From positions 6,233,001-6,297,000 of the forward strand of contig NC_020453.1 of the NCBI RefSeq assembly GCF_000344805.1: a stretch of DNA of 64,000 nucleotides, given 5' to 3'. Source of the stretch: Bradyrhizobium oligotrophicum S58 (GTDB taxonomy: Bacteria > Pseudomonadota > Alphaproteobacteria > Rhizobiales > Xanthobacteraceae). This document shows positions 30,432 through 40,454 of the stretch, one piece after another; position 1 is the stretch's first letter; every line of letters starts with the position of its first letter. The position numbers and the translations under genes are program-made. Under the pieces are notes generated by a model. It was not told where the DNA came from, made no database searches, and worked only from the letters and a program-made list of their open reading frames with translations.

Positions 30432-31235
30432 TCACAGGCCGAGCGAAATTTCGGCTGAGGTGACAACGGTGACCTCGGCGAAGATATCGGGCGCGGGTAT
30501 CGCGATCTCGGGCTGGTGCTTTCGCCGCGCGGCCACGACCGGCGCAAACAGGCTGCGATGATGCACCGAGGGGCCGAGCCGGTCGAGCGCCGCCAGATGC
30601 TCCGGCACGCCATAGCCCTTATGCTGCTCGAAGCCGTAGCCGGGACAATCCTGCGCCAGCGCGCACATCAGCCGATCGCGCGTCACCTTGGCGACGATCG
30701 AGGCGGCCGCGATCGACATCACCAGACCGTCGCCGCCGATCACCGCATCGCAGGCGCAATCGACATCGATGCGGTCGCGGCCGTCGACGAAGACGTGCTT
30801 AGGTGCCTCGGGCAACGCCCTCACGGCGCGCGACAGCGCCCACAGCGACGCCCGCAGGATGTTGTCGCGATCGATTCGCGCCGGCGAGGCGACGGCGACC
30901 GCAAACGCCGACGTCTTGCAGATCTTGTCGAACAGTGCTTCGCGCTGCTCCGCGCTCAGCCGCTTGGAATCGTCGAGGCCCTTGGGAATCCGCGCAGGAT
31001 CGAGAATCACGGCGGCGGCGACAACGGGACCGGCCAGCGGCCCCCGTCCCGCCTCGTCGCAGCCGGCGACCGGCCAGATGCCCTGCTTCAACAGCGCACG
31101 CTCCCGGCGAAAGCTCGGCGGCGCCACCGCGATGACGCCCTTGCCGGGCTTGGCGGCGGCGGCCTTGGCCCCCTTGGCGGCGGCCTTCCCGGAGTTCAAA
31201 GTCTTCGCTGGTTTCTTGGCTTCATCCCGAATCAT
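30432..31235 (-). CDS. rnhB: Ribonuclease HII
   Basis: 267-residue endonuclease that cuts the RNA of RNA-DNA hybrids and single ribonucleotides in DNA. All four acidic residues are identifiable: Asp and Glu in [14 protein letters not shown], Asp in [10 protein letters not shown] and Asp in [11 protein letters not shown] ~40-residue Lys/Ala-rich N-terminal extension ([20 protein letters not shown]) precedes the catalytic core. A degraded copy of the first third of this gene lies at 40.13-40.45 kb on the same strand, beyond a seven-gene block. Confidence 0.93.
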
Positions 31236-31328: not shown

Positions 31329-32357
31329 CTATTTGGCGGCAGGCTCTACCGTCTGGATCGCCGCATGCCATCCCGACACGAAGGCCTTCATACCCGCCTC
31401 CGACAGGTGACACGTAGCGGTACGCTGCTCGGGCAGGTCAATTGCGTCGAGATCTGGTCCGCTGAACACGACTCCGGAATTCTCCCTGACGATCTCGGTC
31501 TGTGCCCAGCGAATCTCCGGCGCAGGCCCCCGCTCCTCACCCCGGCATGACGAGGTCGGAGATACGAAGACCTTGGCCTGCGAATAGCGCCGCACCAGGT
31601 TGACGATGGCCTGGAGGCCATCGAAATAGTCCGCGCCCCCGTTGCGACGGTAACGGCTGCCGTCGAAACGTTCTGCCTCGCCCTGGACCCAGAACACATG
31701 GGTTGGCGGGATCCCGGACCGGGCAAGGCGCCGCAGCGTGCTCTCGGCCAGCATGTAGAGATCACCGCCAGCGTTCCATCGGGTCATGCCGGTGCCACCG
31801 AGGGTGAGCGGCACCAGCAGCACCCGATCGAAAACCTTGGCTTCGAGGGTTGTATTGGCGAGCGCCATCCAGGGACTGCCGCCGTTGCCGTCGGATCCCA
31901 TCAGCGGCTCGGCGGCAACTGCACATTGCTGGCCGAAATAGTTGGCGACATCCGCACCATGATTGTTGGGCGAGCGCCCTTCGCCGTAGTTGCCGGCATT
32001 GCTCTGGCCAAGGATGAGAATGACCGCGGAGCGCGGCTGGGCAAAGGTCCGACAATCGACCTTCATCGCCTTGGCGAACAGTGCAGCCCCTTCGGCGCTG
32101 TAGGCGGGCGTCCGCATGTCGGACAGCAATCGGTCGCTCTGCAGAGCCTCGAGCTTCAGCAGCAGCGCCTGCTGCTGATCCGACGCCTGCGCCAAGCGCG
32201 CCTGCTGAGCCCGGACGTCGGCCAGAGCAGCGGAAATGTCGCGGAGATCGCGCAGAGTGGTTTCACTCGTCACCGCGCGCGCACCGATCCACACGACCAG
32301 CAAACCAACGAGCACGATCGACGACCTGACGACATCATATCGGTCGAACGGCGCCAT
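31329..32357 (-). CDS. SASA/DUF303-type carbohydrate esterase, membrane-anchored
   Basis: 342 residues. An N-terminal helix (SSIVLVGLLVVWIGARAV) anchors it, then a coiled coil (LRDISAALADVRAQQARL and on) precedes an SGNH-fold esterase: VILILGQSNAGNYGEG with the nucleophile Ser, FWVQGEAERFDGSRY, and a C-terminal HLSEAGM with the catalytic His. Members of the sialate O-acetylesterase group remove acyl esters from sugars. Here it is the last gene of the minus-strand block, 4 nt after the FkbH-like gene, and would act outside the membrane. It may remove or transfer the acyl group the cluster installs; this is inference. Confidence 0.78.
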   Translation of the reverse strand: MAPFDRYDVVRSSIVLVGLLVVWIGARAVTSETTLRDLRDISAALADVRAQQARLAQASDQQQALLLKLEALQSDRLLSDMRTPAYSAEGAALFAKAMKVDCRTFAQPRSAVILILGQSNAGNYGEGRSPNNHGADVANYFGQQCAVAAEPLMGSDGNGGSPWMALANTTLEAKVFDRVLLVPLTLGGTGMTRWNAGGDLYMLAESTLRRLARSGIPPTHVFWVQGEAERFDGSRYRRNGGADYFDGLQAIVNLVRRYSQAKVFVSPTSSCRGEERGPAPEIRWAQTEIVRENSGVVFSGPDLDAIDLPEQRTATCHLSEAGMKAFVSGWHAAIQTVEPAAK

Positions 32358-32361
32358 TTTC

Positions 32362-34272
32362 TCAGGCCGCGTCGACCGTCTCGTCGCGAGGGGCCGGCTC
32401 GCTCCCGACCAGCTTGATCTTGGTGTCCAGAAACACCGGCGGATTCACTGGGCGGATCCAATCGGTGACGCCGTCGACCTCGCCGACCTTCTCGAAACGG
32501 AGACGCTGGTAGAGCTGAGCCACCAGCTTGTTCTTCTTGCTCGGCACGTAGCGGCCCCGGATGACCTCGCAACCGCGATCGAGCGCGACGCGCGCGATCT
32601 CGTTGGCGATGAACTCCTCCATCGCCCTGCCAAGCACGCGACAGCTCATCACCCATGTATCGACGACGAGTGCCGGCCCATCCTGCCGCATCAGGACCAC
32701 CGAGATCAGGCCGTTGTCGCCAAAGCGGTCACGCAGAATGAAATGGCGGCAGATCCAGTTCTCATCGCGCTGAAACGCACTTACCTCGGCTTCGCTGTAG
32801 CGCGTGCCAGTCAGATGAAACTGGTTGCTCTTGTTGATCAATTGTGCCGAGCGGGCGAGATACATCCCGTCGGCGCAGCCGATTTCGGCCTCCATCAACA
32901 GGCTTTCCTGGAACTGAGCCTGGTCGGCGAAAGACCCCTGCAGCTCGCGGCGCTGCGCATTGGCGCGGTAGTACTCCGTACGAACGGCGTCTTCCTGCGA
33001 ATAGGCGGCCGTCTCGAAATAGCGCAGGCGATGCACGAGCCCGACATATTCCGCGGGATCGTCGGACAGCTCGGGAACGGCGACCATCGGCAAGTACTGG
33101 CGCACCACGTCGCGTTCGACGGGATTGTCGTCGATGAACACCATCGAATCGAGCCCGATGTTCAGGTTCTCGGCGATCGTGCGTATGTTGTCGGCCTTGT
33201 TGTTCCAATTGGCCACGAACTCGGCGATGTCATCGAGCTTCAGGCGCATATCCGGATGTTGCTCGAACGGCTCCCTGGCATTGGCCGCCTCGTTCTTGCT
33301 GCAGACGGCGAGGATGACACCGCGCTGCTTCAGGCTTTTGAAGTAGTCCTGGATCTGGCTGAATGCCTCGCCGGTGGCGCCGTTGCCGAGCTTGATCCCC
33401 GCCAGCCCATCATCGCCGATGACCCCGCCCCACAGCGTGTTGTCGAGGTCGAGCACGACGCATTTCTTGGCCTGGCCCTTGATCGCCGCGACCAGCCGCG
33501 CGAACGTAAAGCCGACCAGCCCCATGGCATCGAACGTCATCGGCTGCTTGGAATGATGCCAGTGGCGATATTCGAACCAGCGTGACTGTCCATAGAGCGC
33601 CGACAGGTGATCATAGTCGAAAATCACCACGCCGCCTGAGGCTCGGTCGGCGAGCCGGCTGTTGAATTTGCGGATGACCGAGCGCCGGCTCCAGCCGACA
33701 GAGCCCTCGAAATTGCCGAGGACGTCGATGGAGGGCGTATCAGCATTGTTCTGGATGACGAGGGCTGGGCAGTTCTTGCGCAGCTCCGCCCACAAGCCTT
33801 CCGCCATGTCGACCTCGGCGGCCACGGCTTCATCGACGACGTCGACCGCGCTGCCGGGCGGCATGTCGATCCGCAGGTCTCGTCCGGTCGTGAAGATCCA
33901 CACGATCTCAGGCTGAAACGCGTACAGGTCCCCATCCTTGTCGAGGATGGTCGGAACGACGGTGTCGAAGGGCGCGATGTAGAACTGCGCGGCAAAGCCT
34001 TCGCAGGCCAACCACAAGCGAACCATTTCGGAGACGTGATCGACCGTGGCACTCGACAGGATCGCGATCCGGATCGGCTTCAGGCCGAGCGCGTTCCGAT
34101 CCATCGTATCGAACACCTTGAGGTATTTGCGCAAGGTGACGAAGCTGTCATTCGGGTCGATCGCGCTTCGCAGCGTCGCGAAGGCATCCTGGATCTCTCC
34201 CCGCCGTGCCTGCGCAGCGAAGCTGGCAAATCGGTCGTTCGAACGCGTGCTGTTCATGTCGGATCGGCTCAT
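32362..34272 (-). CDS. FkbH-like HAD-IIIC protein with C-terminal GNAT-like domain
   Basis: 636 residues. Residues ~65-230 form an SGNH-like N-terminal domain (IRIAILSSATVDHVSEMVRL). The HAD core starts near 268 with KKCVVLDLDNTLWGGVIGDDG (motif I), with CSKNEAANAREPF and MVFIDDNPVERDVVRQ. The last ~180 residues look GNAT-like (LARSAQLINKSNQFHLTGTR, DRFGDNGLISVVLM). FkbH enzymes load and dephosphorylate 1,3-bisphosphoglycerate onto an acyl carrier protein to give glyceryl-ACP, used in polyketides and some glycan decorations. An ACP gene lies in the same block, which supports that role. Start could be 34272 or 34257. Confidence 0.82.
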   Translation of the reverse strand: MSRSDMNSTRSNDRFASFAAQARRGEIQDAFATLRSAIDPNDSFVTLRKYLKVFDTMDRNALGLKPIRIAILSSATVDHVSEMVRLWLACEGFAAQFYIAPFDTVVPTILDKDGDLYAFQPEIVWIFTTGRDLRIDMPPGSAVDVVDEAVAAEVDMAEGLWAELRKNCPALVIQNNADTPSIDVLGNFEGSVGWSRRSVIRKFNSRLADRASGGVVIFDYDHLSALYGQSRWFEYRHWHHSKQPMTFDAMGLVGFTFARLVAAIKGQAKKCVVLDLDNTLWGGVIGDDGLAGIKLGNGATGEAFSQIQDYFKSLKQRGVILAVCSKNEAANAREPFEQHPDMRLKLDDIAEFVANWNNKADNIRTIAENLNIGLDSMVFIDDNPVERDVVRQYLPMVAVPELSDDPAEYVGLVHRLRYFETAAYSQEDAVRTEYYRANAQRRELQGSFADQAQFQESLLMEAEIGCADGMYLARSAQLINKSNQFHLTGTRYSEAEVSAFQRDENWICRHFILRDRFGDNGLISVVLMRQDGPALVVDTWVMSCRVLGRAMEEFIANEIARVALDRGCEVIRGRYVPSKKNKLVAQLYQRLRFEKVGEVDGVTDWIRPVNPPVFLDTKIKLVGSEPAPRDETVDAA

Positions 34273-34477
34273 CGCAAATGGTCAGTACAAGTCCCCACGT
34301 CCCGAAGCCGGCAAGCTCCAGCCATACCGCTCATGTGCGAACCTCGGAAATCGCGAAAGTCCGAAAAACCATGAGCCCGTAAACTCGTTGCTTCGGCGCC
34401 GAATTGGGCCACCGCTCTCGATCCGACGTCCCCGTGTCGGGGGCCGTCGAAAAGTCGCGGCGGCCGCCGCTGTCGAT

Positions 34478-36148
34478 CTAAGCCCCGAAGGCGCTCGTGA
34501 CGAGCTCCGGACGGCTTGCCTGCAGCACCGATCCCGGCAACCGGTTTGCGTGAAGCGCCTTCAGCGAGGCAACGACGTCGTCATTGTCACCGAAGTCCCC
34601 CGCAAGCTGCCTCTTCATGATGGTGTTGATGCCTTCCTGCAATTGCCTGATCTCGCGGAAGTCGTAACCCTGGTCGTAGAGATAGGCCATGTACCAAAGG
34701 CTGGTGTCCGGATCGACGAAGCAGGCGTTCTTGATGGACTGGAACATCTCGAGCTTGATGCGGCCGGCGTCCTCATGGGACATCGTGTTGTGCTTCCAAT
34801 TCGCGCCCATCCCCGTCAAACCGAACTCTTCGCGCCGGTTGTGGATGTCGGTGTGCTCCATATAATAGAATTCCTTCAGCGAATAGAACTGGACGCCGCA
34901 GTTCTCGATGAAGTCCATGTTGTCCTGGATGGTCTTGTCCGTCTCGCCGGGGAAGCCGAGCACGAAGGCCGCCAGCGAGTTGATGTCGTATTTGTTCAAC
35001 AACTCGATGCCGCGCTGGAAATCGGCGCGCCGCGCCTTCTTGTTCATATTTTCGAGCACGGTGTCGTTGGCGGATTCGACGCCGAGATAGACCCCCTTGC
35101 ACCCGGAATCCTTCATCGCCCGCACGATGTCCTCGTCGACATATTGCACGCGGAGGAACGAGAACCATTCGAAGTCATATTCCTGGAAGATCTTGAGCAG
35201 AGCCTTGTAGCGGTGCGGGGGCACGTTGAAGGTGTCGTCGATGAAGATGATGCGATCGATGCCGCCGATGCGCTTCACCGCGTCGAGATGCATCCTGACC
35301 TTGTCGCCTCCCAACGTCTTCCAGCCGCCGGCCGTCGTCGGATAGGAACAGAAGGCGCAGGAGAACGGGCACCCCGACGCAGTCCTGATCTGGACGGTGC
35401 GATTGAGGAACGGCGCGTCCAGTTGATCCCACAAGGCCGGGCAGTCGTCGAGCAGCGGCGTATTCCATTGCACCGGACCGGCCGTGAAGCTGCCTCCTTG
35501 GTAGCTGCAGAGGTTCTTGACCTGGTCGAAGCCCTCACCCTTGCGCCGGGCCACGAGCAGATCCCGGAGATCGAATTCCGAGTTGAAGGCATGCAGCATG
35601 TGCTTGATGCCGTATTTCCGCATCGGCTCCGCCAGATCGGCCGGCGACCCGTTGATGATGTAGGAATTCGCGAACGCGCCGCCGACGATGATCTCCATGT
35701 CGGGATCGAGTTTCTTGAGGCGCTTGCAGATGCGCCCGATCTCCTTGAAGCTCAGGAAGAACGTGGAGGAAATGCCGACCGGGATGTCACCGCCACAACT
35801 GCGGTAGGCCTCCTCGAACAGATCCCAGTCGCTGTCGATGTTGTTGATGATCTTGGTGCGGATACCGAACGAGAGCAGGTAGTTGGCCACGTGCAGACCG
35901 CTGGCCGACGGCAGGTTCCATATGTTCAGCGACTGCCGGCGCCCGGGATAATCGGCCTCGAAATAGTTGGGCCGGCCCGAGATCGAATTGATGAAATCGA
36001 GATGGCCGACGAACTTCCCCTCGTGCCGAACCATCCGCGGGTAGACCAGCGACCGGAACAGATCCAGCCGATCGATGGGAAGCGCCGAAAACGCGTCGTA
36101 CTCGACGACGTTAGATTGGCAGATCAGTATAAAATCCCAATCTTTCAT
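34478..36148 (-). CDS. Radical SAM protein with B12-binding-like N-terminal region
   Basis: 556 residues from MKDWDFILICQSNVVEYDAF. The N-terminal ~230 residues resemble a cobalamin-binding fold (PVGISSTFFLSFKEIGRIC, DMEIIVGGAFANSY) but no DxHxxG cobalamin-ligand motif is visible. The radical SAM cluster motif CPFSCAFC is at about residue 260, followed by IIFIDDTFNVPPHRYKALL and GVYLGVESANDTVLENM. The reaction cannot be predicted; such enzymes methylate or rearrange carbon centres. Its start overlaps the MaoC stop by 4 nt (ATGA), and AGGAG lies 6 nt upstream, so the two are translationally coupled. Confidence 0.85.
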   Translation of the reverse strand: MKDWDFILICQSNVVEYDAFSALPIDRLDLFRSLVYPRMVRHEGKFVGHLDFINSISGRPNYFEADYPGRRQSLNIWNLPSASGLHVANYLLSFGIRTKIINNIDSDWDLFEEAYRSCGGDIPVGISSTFFLSFKEIGRICKRLKKLDPDMEIIVGGAFANSYIINGSPADLAEPMRKYGIKHMLHAFNSEFDLRDLLVARRKGEGFDQVKNLCSYQGGSFTAGPVQWNTPLLDDCPALWDQLDAPFLNRTVQIRTASGCPFSCAFCSYPTTAGGWKTLGGDKVRMHLDAVKRIGGIDRIIFIDDTFNVPPHRYKALLKIFQEYDFEWFSFLRVQYVDEDIVRAMKDSGCKGVYLGVESANDTVLENMNKKARRADFQRGIELLNKYDINSLAAFVLGFPGETDKTIQDNMDFIENCGVQFYSLKEFYYMEHTDIHNRREEFGLTGMGANWKHNTMSHEDAGRIKLEMFQSIKNACFVDPDTSLWYMAYLYDQGYDFREIRQLQEGINTIMKRQLAGDFGDNDDVVASLKALHANRLPGSVLQASRPELVTSAFGA

Positions 36149-36642
36149 GTTCGGCTCCTGGTAAACCCTGCTTGGACCTTGCCCTTGGCGACGATCGTCT
36201 GAGTGCGCGGGCGGATGACTTCGACGTTGGCGACGAAGACCTCGGCTGCGCTCGACCATTGCGCCACCGTTGCCTGGATGCGGATCGTATCGCCGATGTA
36301 CAACGGCTCGATCCACCGAAGATTGATCGATTGCAGGATGCAGTCGAGGCCCGGCAGGCGGAGCCCGAACAGCCGTGAGATGAATCCCCCGATCAGCATG
36401 CCGTGGACGACGCGCCCTTCGAAACCGCGTTCCCTGGCCGCGCCGTCGTCCATGTGGATCGGGGACACGTCACCGGTGAGCGCTGCAAACTGATCGACAT
36501 GCTGACGCTCGACGCATTGTTCGATCTCCGCCGTCAAGCCGACGAAAATATCGTCAGGCTTCAGGCAGAGAACCGCGCTCGCGCCGCCGGCCAATTGAAC
36601 CATTCCCCCGTCCTGCCCGTCATCAGCGTCGAAGCTCGGCAT
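36145..36642 (-). CDS. MaoC-family hydratase/dehydratase
   Basis: 165 residues of hot-dog fold. The catalytic signature FAALTGDVSPIHMDDGAARE, then FEGRVVHGMLIGGFISRLFG, carries the Asp and His of (R)-specific enoyl hydratases. They hydrate or dehydrate acyl-CoA or acyl-ACP thioesters. Coupled to the radical SAM gene by an ATGA overlap, and 264 bp downstream of the ACP gene. In this setting it likely acts on the ACP-bound acyl intermediate, although this is inferred. Confidence 0.85.
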   Translation of the reverse strand: MPSFDADDGQDGGMVQLAGGASAVLCLKPDDIFVGLTAEIEQCVERQHVDQFAALTGDVSPIHMDDGAARERGFEGRVVHGMLIGGFISRLFGLRLPGLDCILQSINLRWIEPLYIGDTIRIQATVAQWSSAAEVFVANVEVIRPRTQTIVAKGKVQAGFTRSRT

Positions 36643-36906
36643 GGTTTAGAATAAGGCCGAGCACACCCCTAAGGCTCACAAACTAGCTTTTTCAAGTCAG
36701 CCGGTCGAGAAAAAATAAACAGTTTCCTGCTCAGACCACTCGGGATTGCAGGTCTATCGGCACCCGGACGGCCCAATCAGAGCTGGCCGGGTCCTATTCA
36801 ATCACCTGGACCAAGTCACACAGGGAACACAGGCTGGAACCCGAATCGAACGATGGACCGACCAATTCCGGCTTCTTGGGCCAATGACCCAGCCGATCAC
36901 CGGCAA

Positions 36907-37149
36907 CTAACGCGCCATCTTCTTCTGGAGCAAAGCGACCATCGCCGCGACATTCTCGAGATTGCCGATTTCCGCGGCATTGAGGCGTTGCCCGAACTCC
37001 TCCTCGACCGCCAGCACCAACGAGATGTGCGTGACGGAATCCCATTCATCGAGGTCGTCGGCCGTCATCTCGGGGGTTATCTTGATGGTCTCGTCACCGA
37101 ACGTCTCGATGAAGACCTTGTTCAAACGCTCGTAGATCTCAGCCGTCAT
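36907..37149 (-). CDS. Acyl carrier protein
   Basis: 80 residues, MTAEIYERLNKVFIETFGDE, then EMTADDLDEWDSVTHISLVL and EEFGQRLNAAEIGNLENVA. The Ser in WDSVTH (residue 38) is the phosphopantetheine site; the usual DSL is DSV, as in many specialised (non-fatty-acid) ACPs. The ATG at 37149 follows GGCGGAG by about 6 nt; an upstream ATG at 37173 overlaps the preceding stop codon. It is distinct from the housekeeping fatty-acid ACP in sequence and location, so it probably carries the block's own acyl unit. Confidence 0.88.
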   Translation of the reverse strand: MTAEIYERLNKVFIETFGDETIKITPEMTADDLDEWDSVTHISLVLAVEEEFGQRLNAAEIGNLENVAAMVALLQKKMAR

Positions 37150-37172
37150 TTTGCACTCCGCCCCAAAGGCCA

Positions 37173-38375
37173 TTACTTCACGAAAGTCGATCTGTAGAGA
37201 TGGTAGTGGTTGACATAGTCATTGGCGCGACCGAGGTCTTCTCGCAAACCGGGAATATCCAGCCGCGGCAGCGCCGCTGCGAACCCGGCAGTATCGCTCG
37301 CCTCAATCAAGGCGGCAACCATGCCGGCCTCGGATGGATGGGAGGTGTCGACGAAATTCTCGGGATCCTTCGACATGACGGCGCGGCTCAAATCGATGTG
37401 GACGATTCCCATTTCGGCGAACCTCTTTTTCATCGCCTCGCTCTCGAAATCGCGCCACGTTCCTGCGTAAGGTCTGTATCCCTCGTCGTGGTCGAGAAAA
37501 TCGACGGTCGGCGCATAGATCGGAAACTGGATTCCAACCAGCAGAACGCCCTTGGCCTTGGCATCGGCCGCCATTCCCGCCAGCTCGGCGAGTTGCTCCT
37601 CATCAGCACGGGGCGCTCCGGGAATGGCATTGACCAAGCCGTTCTTCAAATCGAGCATCACCCGCTTGGCGTCGTCATATTGCGCCACCTGGTAGATCAG
37701 CGATCCATCCCAACGAAAGCCGGCTCCGTTTCGCACCGCGGTGACTCCGACCATGGTCAGATCCTCTCGCGGATGCTGCGGATAACGGCCGGCGAGGCAC
37801 TCCCACAGAGCTTCGAGGCCATGACCGCTGGTATCCATGGCCTGACCGATCAAGGAGCCGATCCCTCCGATGTGCCCCCCGATATTGTAGCGGAACGCCC
37901 CTGCCCGCTTGCCTTCGATCCTCTGATAGGAATTCGAGAGCTGGAAATAATCCATTGAGAAAATGACGACGCGGGGACGCGAGACCTCGGTAATCCTGTT
38001 GAGGAAGTCACGCAGCTGAGAAACCGTCCAGGCAGTCAGACAGGCGTTGTAGAACTTATAGGGGGTGAACATCGCCGAGCGCAGCTGGCTGCAGCGCGAA
38101 TTTCCGATGGCGATGATCTCCGGCTGTTCGTCGGCAATCCGCTGCAGTTTGAAGGCAGCCCAGTTGCGTGCATCAGTGGGAAAGAAGACGACGGGCATGT
38201 TGCCCTGCTGCAGGCGGGCTGCAGCGGAGGGGGGGCGTCCCTCCAGCGTGGTCCAGCCGAGATATTCCATCAGCGCGATTTGGACGAGCGCAAACCCCAC
38301 CACCCATGCCAGGAAGCGACGACCTCGGCGCGCTCCTGTTTGCTGCTGCGTGGTGGACGTGACGGACAACTGCAT
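37173..38375 (-). CDS. Membrane-anchored SGNH-like protein
   Basis: 400 residues with one N-terminal membrane helix (about 21-38, FLAWVVGFALVQIALMEY) and a large periplasmic part. IIAIGNSRCSQLRS (GNSR at 91-94) looks like the SGNH block I nucleophile region, and DTSHPSEAGM near residue 341 gives the Asp-x-x-His pair. This matches acyl-transfer partners that work with MBOAT proteins, such as AlgJ/AlgX or DltD, though identity is not asserted. It is encoded 53 nt after the MBOAT gene and touches the ACP gene, consistent with one pathway. Confidence 0.7.
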   Translation of the reverse strand: MQLSVTSTTQQQTGARRGRRFLAWVVGFALVQIALMEYLGWTTLEGRPPSAAARLQQGNMPVVFFPTDARNWAAFKLQRIADEQPEIIAIGNSRCSQLRSAMFTPYKFYNACLTAWTVSQLRDFLNRITEVSRPRVVIFSMDYFQLSNSYQRIEGKRAGAFRYNIGGHIGGIGSLIGQAMDTSGHGLEALWECLAGRYPQHPREDLTMVGVTAVRNGAGFRWDGSLIYQVAQYDDAKRVMLDLKNGLVNAIPGAPRADEEQLAELAGMAADAKAKGVLLVGIQFPIYAPTVDFLDHDEGYRPYAGTWRDFESEAMKKRFAEMGIVHIDLSRAVMSKDPENFVDTSHPSEAGMVAALIEASDTAGFAAALPRLDIPGLREDLGRANDYVNHYHLYRSTFVK

Positions 38376-38428
38376 GGCTTATCCTGCGGAGCTCATCGGT
38401 CGGACGGGCATGGCCAATGTGCACTCGG

Positions 38429-39997
38429 TCAGAAGTGGAAATAGAGCAGCGCGGCGCGATCGTTGCTCAGGAAGGCGACGACCGACCAGACGAGCAGACA
38501 TGACACCGAGAGCGCCCAGGCCGGGGATAAGGACAGCTTGAGCGCCTCGGTCGAAGGCGCGATCTTGGGGTAGCCGCCGCCTTCGAACACCGGATTGAAC
38601 CGCGACAGGATTTGATTGCTGTTCGGCAACACCCAGACGATCAGGAAGAGCGCGAGCAGCAAGGCAATATCGGCAACCGTGATCGGCATCGCCCCGCCGG
38701 TGGTGAGAAGCGGGTCCGCCGGATGGCTTGGCCAGGCGCTGCTCGCCAGCGTGGCCCCGGTCCACTCTGAGCGTCCGAGCAATGTCCCGAGCATCGCGAA
38801 CGCGCGCCCGGGATTGCTGGCACGGAAGATGGCCCACCCGGCCGCGACCGCGAGGAACGTCAGTCCGAGCGCGACCGTAGGCCACCAGTCGGAGGCGAGC
38901 GCAGCCTTGCGATAACGTCCGCCGAAGCTTCGCCAAGCGTGATTCACGACCAGCAGAGCACCGTGATACAGGCCGAACATAGCAAATGTCAGGTGATCGC
39001 CGTGCCAGATGCCCATCAGGAACATCACGAGCGTGGTCGGATAGGCGATGCGCCAGACGAATTGCTTGACCGCGCTGGCCTTGGCTCCGATCTTGCGCGC
39101 CATGGTCAGAGTGACCGTATTGTAGACGTAGATCGTCAGAAAGCGTGTCAATGAGACGTGCCAGCGCTGCCAGAAATCGACCATGCTGCGCGCCTTGAAG
39201 GGCGAGTGGAAATTGGCCGGCAACTCCACACCAAGCAGACGCGCGACGCCGATAGCCGCGTCGCTGTAGCCCGAGAAGTCGAAATACACCTGGAATCCGT
39301 AGGCGATCATGCCGATCCAGGCGCCGGTCATGGGAATCGGTTGCTTGGCAAGCCAAGGCACGAACACCTTGTCGGCCACCGCTGCGATCGCGGGCGAGAT
39401 CATCAGGTTCTTGAACATCCCGATGCCGATCAGTGCCAGTCCGACGGACCAGTCGACGCTGGTCGTACGACCGAGCCGGTCCTGGCTCATCATCGCCTCG
39501 TAGCGAATCAGCGGGCCGCACAAGATCGCCGGGAAAAACAGGGCATAGCACAACAGGTCCAGCGGAGAGCGCGCGACCTCGCCGCCGGCATGTGCGTCCA
39601 CGAGATACGACACCAGGCGGAAGATGATGAAGGAGAGCCCAATCGGAAAGCCAAGTCCGAGTTCAACGGAATAGGTCGGGCCCAGTCCGGCGATTATGGC
39701 ACCAAGATACTTGTAGGCAGCAAGCAGTCCGAGATCGAGCGTCAAGCCACAGACCAGAAGCGTGGATTTTCTGTGGTCCGGCGACAGCACGATTGCTCGC
39801 CCCAGCACCCAGTTGATTGCGACCAAACCGAGACAAATCGGCAACCCGTGCGGATCAAATCCATAGTAGACGATCGTCGATCCGATCGCCACGATTCCAC
39901 GACGGACCTCGACGCTGGCCTGGCTGGTCAGCCTGAGGGCAAGCGCGACTGCCGACAACACCACGATAAATAGGGTGAAGTAGTCAGAATTGTGCAT
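38429..39997 (-). CDS. MBOAT-family O-acyltransferase
   Basis: 522-residue polytopic inner-membrane protein. The start ATG at 39997 gives MHNSDYFTLFIVVLSAVALA. AAYKYLG, GLSFIIFRLVSYLVDAH, FFPAILCGPLIRYEAM and GFQVYFDFSGYSDAAIGVAR are classical MBOAT/AlgI segments, and the two active-site histidines are in GIWHGDHLTFAMFGLYHG. Such enzymes move acyl groups across the membrane to extracellular polymers. It is first in transcription order in the block, followed by the SGNH protein and ACP. Its acyl donor is presumably the ACP-bound group made by the other genes; the acceptor is unknown. Confidence 0.9.
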   Translation of the reverse strand: MHNSDYFTLFIVVLSAVALALRLTSQASVEVRRGIVAIGSTIVYYGFDPHGLPICLGLVAINWVLGRAIVLSPDHRKSTLLVCGLTLDLGLLAAYKYLGAIIAGLGPTYSVELGLGFPIGLSFIIFRLVSYLVDAHAGGEVARSPLDLLCYALFFPAILCGPLIRYEAMMSQDRLGRTTSVDWSVGLALIGIGMFKNLMISPAIAAVADKVFVPWLAKQPIPMTGAWIGMIAYGFQVYFDFSGYSDAAIGVARLLGVELPANFHSPFKARSMVDFWQRWHVSLTRFLTIYVYNTVTLTMARKIGAKASAVKQFVWRIAYPTTLVMFLMGIWHGDHLTFAMFGLYHGALLVVNHAWRSFGGRYRKAALASDWWPTVALGLTFLAVAAGWAIFRASNPGRAFAMLGTLLGRSEWTGATLASSAWPSHPADPLLTTGGAMPITVADIALLLALFLIVWVLPNSNQILSRFNPVFEGGGYPKIAPSTEALKLSLSPAWALSVSCLLVWSVVAFLSNDRAALLYFHF

Positions 39998-40129
39998 CGC
40001 GCGTCCATGTCCCCCGGGGCACACTCGTCAGGTGGCAGGCACCTCCCTAGCGTCCCAGCCCGCTCGACACAACTTTGTTTCGGGCTTCTGGGAACAATTC
40101 ACTTGGAAGCGGACTTCCGCACCTCGCGC

Positions 40130-40454
40130 CCTGCAACTCGAACGGCGCCTTTCGCCGCTCCGTGCTCAGCCGTTTGGAATCGTCGAGGCCCCTCGGGATA
40201 CGCGCGCGGTAGAGAATGACGGCGGCGGCAACCACCGGACCGGCAAACGGACCCCGCCTCGCCTCGTCGCCCCCCCCCTCACGACCAGCCAGATGCCCTG
40301 CTTCAGCAGCGCCCGCTCGCGCCGGAAGCTCGGCAGGGCCACGGCAATGCCGCCCTTTCCGGGGCTTGACGGCGGCCTTGGCCGTGGCGCCCTTGGTCGC
40401 AAGAACACCCGCAGTTTTCGCCCAGCCCGACGTTTTCGCTTGGTCCCGAATCAT
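40130..40454 (-). pseudogene. rnhB: Decayed copy of the rnhB 5' third
   Basis: From an ATG at 40454 the reading starts MIRDQAK, like MIRDEAK of intact RNase HII, and later has [14 protein letters not shown] and GLDDSKRLS, matching [14 protein letters not shown] and GLDDSKRLS. Between these the frame shifts at least twice; the stretch resembling [13 protein letters not shown] is in another frame. The catalytic DEAGRG is changed to DEARRG. Homology to 30930-31235 ends near codon 100, so only the first third is present. Similarity is partial at DNA level, so the copy is old or came from a different strain. Confidence 0.85.

Follow-up and report, generated by a model that had tools for sequence, protein, structure and literature searches.

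A candidate carrier-fed MBOAT-SGNH acylation system with FkbH and radical SAM proteins in Bradyrhizobium oligotrophicum S58

Why would a bacterium keep an FkbH protein, an acyl carrier protein (ACP), a MaoC-like enzyme and a radical SAM enzyme next to a membrane-bound O-acyltransferase (MBOAT) and an SGNH-fold partner? The question is raised by seven open frames, all on the minus strand, which form one run at positions 31329-40024 of a 64-kb stretch of the Bradyrhizobium oligotrophicum S58 genome (NC_020453.1, positions 6,233,001 to 6,297,000; hereafter the window). The original prediction had read this block as a pathway that builds an acyl group on its own ACP and exports it to an envelope or capsule sugar. 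Following it up, we favour the reading that the locus is a horizontally acquired acylation system, in which a three-carbon (C3) unit would be built on the ACP and exported to an extracytoplasmic glycan. Judged by sequence, carrier-fed export by the MBOAT-SGNH pair is quite probable, and a glycan is the likely acceptor of the acyl group.

The gene assignments of the original prediction were confirmed. Matches to SASA (PF03629, 38.8 bits, cut-off 24.8), FkbH (TIGR01686, 278.9 bits, cut-off 146.65), Radical_SAM (PF04055, 92 bits, cut-off 29.5), MaoC (PF01575, 59.8 bits, cut-off 27) and MBOAT (PF03062, 74.6 bits, cut-off 27) all lie above cut-off, and the ACP falls slightly under it (PF00550, 20.3 bits, cut-off 20.8); eight NCBIfam ACP models also match it at sub-threshold scores. 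We corrected the start of the radical SAM gene from 36316 to 36148, where an ATG overlaps the MaoC stop, and the ACP perhaps starts at an inner ATG (Table 1).

The combination of these genes is not peculiar to S58. A scan of species genomes with a radical SAM alignment yielded 59 loci, 31 of them at 46-69% identity (the close group) and 28 at 23-36% (the distant group). Within flanks of up to 10 kb, the close loci carried MaoC (30/31), FkbH (27/31), ACP (27/31) and MBOAT (23/31); since several contigs of this group are short (L010, L021, L032, L033), these counts are minima. None of the four was found at any of the 28 distant loci, which served as a control. The latter (L035-L062) encode PhpK-like radical SAM proteins of Acidobacteriota, Actinomycetota and others. 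Most of the gene set thus recurs in unrelated bacteria, and a relative in Paramagnetospirillum marisnigri has MaoC, radical SAM, FkbH and MBOAT. Of the seven parts five are conserved together, so that the condition under which the original prediction would have failed, a lack of joint conservation elsewhere, does not apply to these five. The SASA protein and the window's SGNH protein, by contrast, had no tblastn match in the 31 loci; SASA is not conserved, and the seven genes are not all obligatory parts. In one close locus (L006) the ACP and MaoC genes lie about 6 kb away, together with a second FkbH gene. Three others (L021, L022, L023) lack an MBOAT; near their ACP gene they encode a protein with weak similarity to GNAT, scoring under the Pfam cut-offs, and they share a gene family with a polysaccharide-deacetylase match. 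Neighbouring genes were predicted with a simple purpose-made gene caller.

A tree of 73 FkbH sequences placed 22 of the 27 radical SAM-linked ones, that of the window included, in one clade (support 100/100), with five outside it (L023, L026, L029, L031, L033). The radical SAM label requires 4 changes on this tree, 3 of them forced by the starred branches, against a mean of 22.2 for shuffled labels. Three sequences, both copies of L024 and the second of L006, were labelled by hand as not radical SAM-linked; since a radical SAM gene is in fact present in L024, a different labelling would raise the number of changes. The placement of L023 and of some further long branches is unsure. The pattern reflects either repeated pairing or several losses. 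Distance matrices correlate as well, although shared descent alone could also give such a correlation. A stronger argument for a functional pairing is that the clustering extends across several phyla.

What, then, would be loaded onto the carrier? FkbH proteins form a glyceryl group on an ACP from 1,3-bisphosphoglycerate. FkbH matches occurred in 55 of 299 Pseudomonadota genomes, and among 40 regions picked from these, many of which end at contig ends, the region table lists ACP in 26, MaoC in 16 (some of them weak matches, such as in L129, L130, L150 and L157), MBOAT in 9 and a short-chain dehydrogenase/reductase (SDR) model in 7. The SDR counts are minima, the two-sequence model having missed an SDR-like gene judged by eye in L093. 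The close radical SAM clade was absent from all 40 regions, two of which (L137, L140) gave weak radical SAM matches. L093, from a genome of the same genus (G1074), combines MaoC, FkbH, ACP and MBOAT with an SGNH-like gene, in the absence of the radical SAM gene and with methyltransferase and SDR-like genes nearby. The charging half is hence modular, FkbH-ACP-MBOAT sets existing also without this radical SAM gene. Elsewhere, a MaoC gene and a reductase accompany FkbH: the second set of L006 has the order ACP-MaoC-SDR-FkbH, and L024 (Prochlorococcus) encodes beside FkbH a protein whose SDR domain has sub-threshold MaoC and carrier-protein matches on either side. By analogy, such sets suggest a conversion of glyceryl via enol-pyruvyl to lactyl, a route which has reportedly been proposed for bryostatin loading. 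Following this logic, the radical SAM enzyme would take the place of the reductase. For the ACP, the closest carrier protein of solved structure is PDB 2LML (E 1e-11), which we take to be GmACP3 of Geobacter metallireducens; the title of the paper describing GmACP3 suggests a role in lipopolysaccharide.

The radical SAM enzyme carries a CxxxCxxC motif that is invariant in 19 aligned homologues and present in 32 of 32 open reading frames (31 loci and the window). Its B12-binding match (PF02310) remains at 23 bits, below the cut-off of 32.1, and it can be aligned structurally with MgmA over residues 5-517 and with TsrM over residues 3-535. The fold neighbours include TokK and CysS, and because the titles of these entries name pantetheine-bound substrates, a carrier-bound substrate is plausible here by analogy. 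The best-matching NCBIfam family is PhpK (TIGR04479), at 380.5 bits against a cut-off of 600; two further members of the close clade scored 352 and 363 bits, while four of eight distant relatives, scanned as match fragments, reached the cut-off at 602-616 bits. P-methylation as in PhpK was rejected on this score. PF13714 matches in the S58 genome lie away from the island, in a family that also matches in 11 of 14 control genomes and is hence undiscriminating. We lean slightly towards the enzyme being a C-methylase of the ACP-bound unit.

On the export side, the MBOAT is DltB-like, scoring 184.9 bits with the DltB equivalog model TIGR04091 (cut-off 375). MBOAT-SGNH systems are described as using a C-terminal Tyr "acyl-shuttle" hexapeptide of the FXYXXF type (PMC12148441). 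The MBOAT of the window ends in such a hexapeptide, with Leu replacing the first Phe. Among the module MBOATs (window and 23 loci) Tyr is found at position -4 in 22 of 24, of which 21 fit the pattern and one (L019) ends in SVYKGY; the WHG motif is present in all 24. The two loci whose MBOAT lacks this Tyr, L026 and L027, each encode a DltX-like one-pass microprotein at the MBOAT and SGNH genes, of 51 or 44 residues and ending in VAYQRF or IAYQQF. These were the sole matches among 4994 small open reading frames at the 59 loci; a pattern with [FLV] as first residue caught only the L026 copy, and the widened pattern caught both and no others. At L145, an FkbH locus without the close radical SAM clade, the MBOAT lacks the terminal motif and no DltX-like microprotein was found. 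The Tyr motif together with the two microproteins is the best evidence, at the level of sequence, that the system would work like Dlt or PatAB, with a carrier protein feeding it.

The SGNH partner was named in the original prediction by resemblance, and this assignment held: although the protein has no Pfam or NCBIfam family match, its predicted structure has an SGNH fold, with DltD among the top fold hits, and Ser93, Asp343 and His346 (Ser and Asp-x-x-His) do not vary across an alignment of 13 sequences that includes its own. Of the 23 loci with an MBOAT, 13 were recognised as having an SGNH-like stand-in. A motif script, which misses the window's own protein and is thus not sensitive, passed 14 of 332 non-core open reading frames and covered 9 of these loci; L005 was added through its family (f7, with six others), and L007, L014 and L029 by eye, L014 and L029 without the D-x-x-H spacing. 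The S58 genome has a second MBOAT locus (L090, 2840001-2859900), whose MBOAT ends in FLYFQF and is accompanied by two SGNH-like genes 32-33% identical to that of the window, with no FkbH or ACP match within 19.9 kb. MBOATs with this C-terminus are also encoded at loci of same-genus genomes (L091, L092, L095).

Taken together, these components can be arranged in a tentative sequence of steps. From family knowledge, FkbH would take 1,3-bisphosphoglycerate and load D-glyceryl onto the dedicated ACP. MaoC would act on the ACP-bound C3 unit, most likely by removal of the 3-hydroxyl to give enol-pyruvyl- or pyruvyl-ACP, after which the B12-type radical SAM enzyme, going by its nearest family and its fold, would modify the carrier-bound unit, most likely by C-methylation. 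Motifs, folds and neighbourhood suggest that the MBOAT would receive the acyl group from the carrier and move it across the membrane to Tyr528 near its own C-terminus, from where the SGNH protein would accept it on Ser93 and pass it on to an extracytoplasmic glycan, at one of its hydroxyls. The SASA esterase might trim or edit the acylation, which is a guess.

Each half of this scheme can be read differently. The radical SAM enzyme might instead act as a diol dehydratase, with AprD4 as the functional model, or similarly, on the 2,3-diol of the glyceryl unit, giving an oxo- or deoxy-C3 unit while the rest of the pathway stays unchanged. This seems rather unlikely, given that the protein scores only 62.8 bits with the AprD4 family in NCBIfam against 380.5 with PhpK, that MaoC would become a redundant dehydratase, and that the gene set contains no partner reductase. 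Alternatively, the two halves could do separate jobs, the MBOAT and SGNH proteins O-acetylating a polymer from acetyl-CoA in the manner of PatAB or AlgIJ, and FkbH, ACP, MaoC and the radical SAM enzyme making something else. The second MBOAT locus of S58 would be in keeping with this, as would the fused C-terminal Tyr motif, which belongs to acyl-CoA-fed systems in PMC12148441. We nevertheless regard two separate jobs as quite improbable, as an MBOAT is present both in 9 of the 40 sampled FkbH regions without the close radical SAM clade and in 23 of the 31 module loci, and as L026 and L027 have a separate microprotein, as in carrier-fed Dlt.

The set might also make a secondary-metabolite building block, such as a starter for a polyketide synthase (PKS), rather than a surface decoration. 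FkbH products feed PKS and nonribosomal peptide synthetase (NRPS) lines in known pathways (PMC7489565 among the sources), and at 8 of the 31 loci (L008, L009, L011, L013, L015, L016, L030, L034) large genes that all belong to a single family are found near the module; the L008 member of this family is a KS-DH-MT-KR-ACP synthase with a weak condensation match. The MBOATs of these eight loci keep the Tyr motif, with no SGNH partner recognised by the insensitive motif script. However, no PKS or NRPS adjoins the S58 island, several relatives have genes of the nonulosonic-acid type (NeuB, UDP-GlcNAc 2-epimerase, CMP-transferase), glycosyltransferase or sulfotransferase genes, some module loci also having asparagine synthase and heparinase-like genes, and the Tyr motif and SGNH partner point outwards, so that we deem this explanation unlikely. 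That no PKS or adenylation domain accompanies the genes, as originally predicted, is true of the cluster; elsewhere in the genome there are very long frames that contain many carrier-protein sites. One of these, an open frame of 12,395 residues (C1:1084994-1118467), has 11 PP-binding matches, and this and the further multi-site frames are presumably large NRPS genes. The predicted acylation and export pathway is supported in its main parts, namely FkbH with an ACP-borne acyl group, modifying enzymes, MBOAT and SGNH partner. It does not stand as an obligatory set of seven, considering the FkbH-ACP-MBOAT sets without the radical SAM gene, the relatives beside polyketide synthases and the three loci in which the MBOAT is absent and a weakly GNAT-like gene present.

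How did S58 come by these genes? Their G+C content is 0.57-0.64, compared to 0.65 for the window, and they sit between the RNase HII gene and a PA0069-type radical SAM gene. RNase HII is present in 40 of 40 same-genus genomes. Loci for 29 of the 39 others could be compared, and in all 29 the PA0069-type gene is no more than 1.5 kb away from RNase HII. In most of them a glyoxalase gene is located between the two or close by, and none has a match to the island at this site. At the upstream edge of the island, part of the RNase HII 5' region is repeated in degenerate form, with 79.5% identity, about the level seen for RNase HII between species of the genus (78.5-83.2%). This second copy suggests a trace of insertion or of recombination with DNA of a relative. 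Jointly with the acylation reading, a horizontally acquired insertion beside RNase HII is what we favour. A conserved family trait was rejected, the radical SAM protein occurring, at the thresholds used and in overlapping samples, in 1 of 149 family, 1 of 385 class and 3 of 398 phylum genomes, own genome included each time (the third phylum match being G612, 288 bits). A plasmid-borne system was likewise rejected: 72,556 plasmid records gave 56 radical SAM matches, all below 60% identity and, among the 15 matches listed, at 23.5-28.0%. The window's SGNH protein has matches in 10 of 265 same-genus genomes, own included; outside its own genome the full-length ones are 30-36% identical, and short fragments reach 45%. 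One relative, P0122, whose source name is Bradyrhizobium, is 85% identical to it.

Table 1. Genes of the S58 island, its edges, and DltX-like microproteins of related loci (window positions unless a locus is given).
Feature	Position	Strand	Remarks
MBOAT acyltransferase, DltB-like, 531 aa	38429..40024	-	WHG histidine His341; C-terminal hexapeptide LLYFHF, Tyr528
SGNH-fold protein, one membrane-anchor-like segment, 400 aa	37173..38375	-	DltD-like by top hits; Ser93, Asp343, His346
Acyl carrier protein, 88 aa as listed	36907..37173	-	WDSV serine motif; likely true start 37149
MaoC-like hot-dog hydratase/dehydratase, 165 aa	36145..36642	-	GDVSPIH motif
Radical SAM enzyme, B12-binding-like N-terminal domain (below cut-off in Pfam), 556 aa	34478..36148	-	CxxxCxxC; nearest named family PhpK, below cut-off
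FkbH protein (HAD-IIIC), 636 aa	32362..34272	-	DLDNTLW and CSKN motifs
SASA-type esterase, N-terminal membrane-anchor-like segment, 342 aa	31329..32357	-	PF03629
RNase HII gene, intact, downstream island edge	30432..31235	-	
Degenerate second copy, part of RNase HII 5' region, upstream island edge	40138..40396	-	79.5% over 259 bases
DltX-like microprotein	L026:6627-6779	-	Polyangiaceae/Omnitrophica bins (L026/L027), beside MBOAT and SGNH-like genes
DltX-like microprotein	L027:14969-15100	+	Polyangiaceae/Omnitrophica bins (L026/L027), beside MBOAT and SGNH-like genes

If the favoured reading is true, a glycolytic intermediate would be linked directly to cell-surface decoration, and MBOAT-SGNH machines could draw on carrier proteins that need no adenylating enzyme for their charging. 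It would also provide a substrate hypothesis for a radical SAM clade for which we found none, and would predict that bacteria of the Magnetospirillum, Rhodospirillales and Bradyrhizobium types bear acyl groups on their glycans. It is conceivable, albeit short of probable, that the locus represents a widespread third, unnamed class of MBOAT-SGNH envelope acylation, with a carrier charged by FkbH directly from glycolysis, and with a plain glyceryl form, a form with MaoC (and reductase) and a C-methylating form with a PhpK-adjacent B12 radical SAM enzyme, the last being that of S58.

As the original prediction had supposed, no named pathway with these parts turned up among the matches listed in openly licensed literature, be it for FkbH with MBOAT and ACP, with radical SAM and polysaccharide, or with O-antigen or lipopolysaccharide, nor anything on glyceryl-ACP with O-antigen, which does not show absence from print; the nearest matches for FkbH combinations were an aeruginosin review (MBOAT and ACP) and a lipopeptide review (lipopolysaccharide). 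Known systems resemble the locus in part. Pathways using FkbH-made glyceryl-ACP, for tetronates or methoxymalonyl-ACP, likewise have FkbH and a stand-alone ACP (PMC7489565), whereas here MaoC, the radical SAM enzyme and the MBOAT replace the PKS and dehydrogenases. The radical SAM P-methyltransferases PhpK and BcpD (TIGR04479) are the nearest family, which the S58 enzyme approaches without reaching its cut-off. With Dlt (DltA, DltB, DltC, DltD, DltX) the locus shares a carrier protein in the operon and a DltB-like MBOAT, and its SGNH protein, which has DltD among its top fold hits, may be of the DltD kind; the order here is MBOAT-SGNH-ACP. Unlike in Dlt, the shuttle Tyr is fused to the MBOAT, and FkbH, MaoC and the radical SAM enzyme are present instead of a DltA-type enzyme, none of which was found among the seven genes and four flanking genes, the only part of the genome scanned for one. 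PatAB and AlgI-AlgJ O-acetylation also employs an MBOAT with a C-terminal Tyr hexapeptide and an SGNH partner, but, according to PMC12148441, has no carrier protein and is evidently fed by acyl-CoA, while S58 has an ACP, encoded between the SGNH and MaoC genes, and a likely charging enzyme in the operon. The locus is best read as a carrier-fed MBOAT-SGNH system placed between the Dlt and PatAB types.
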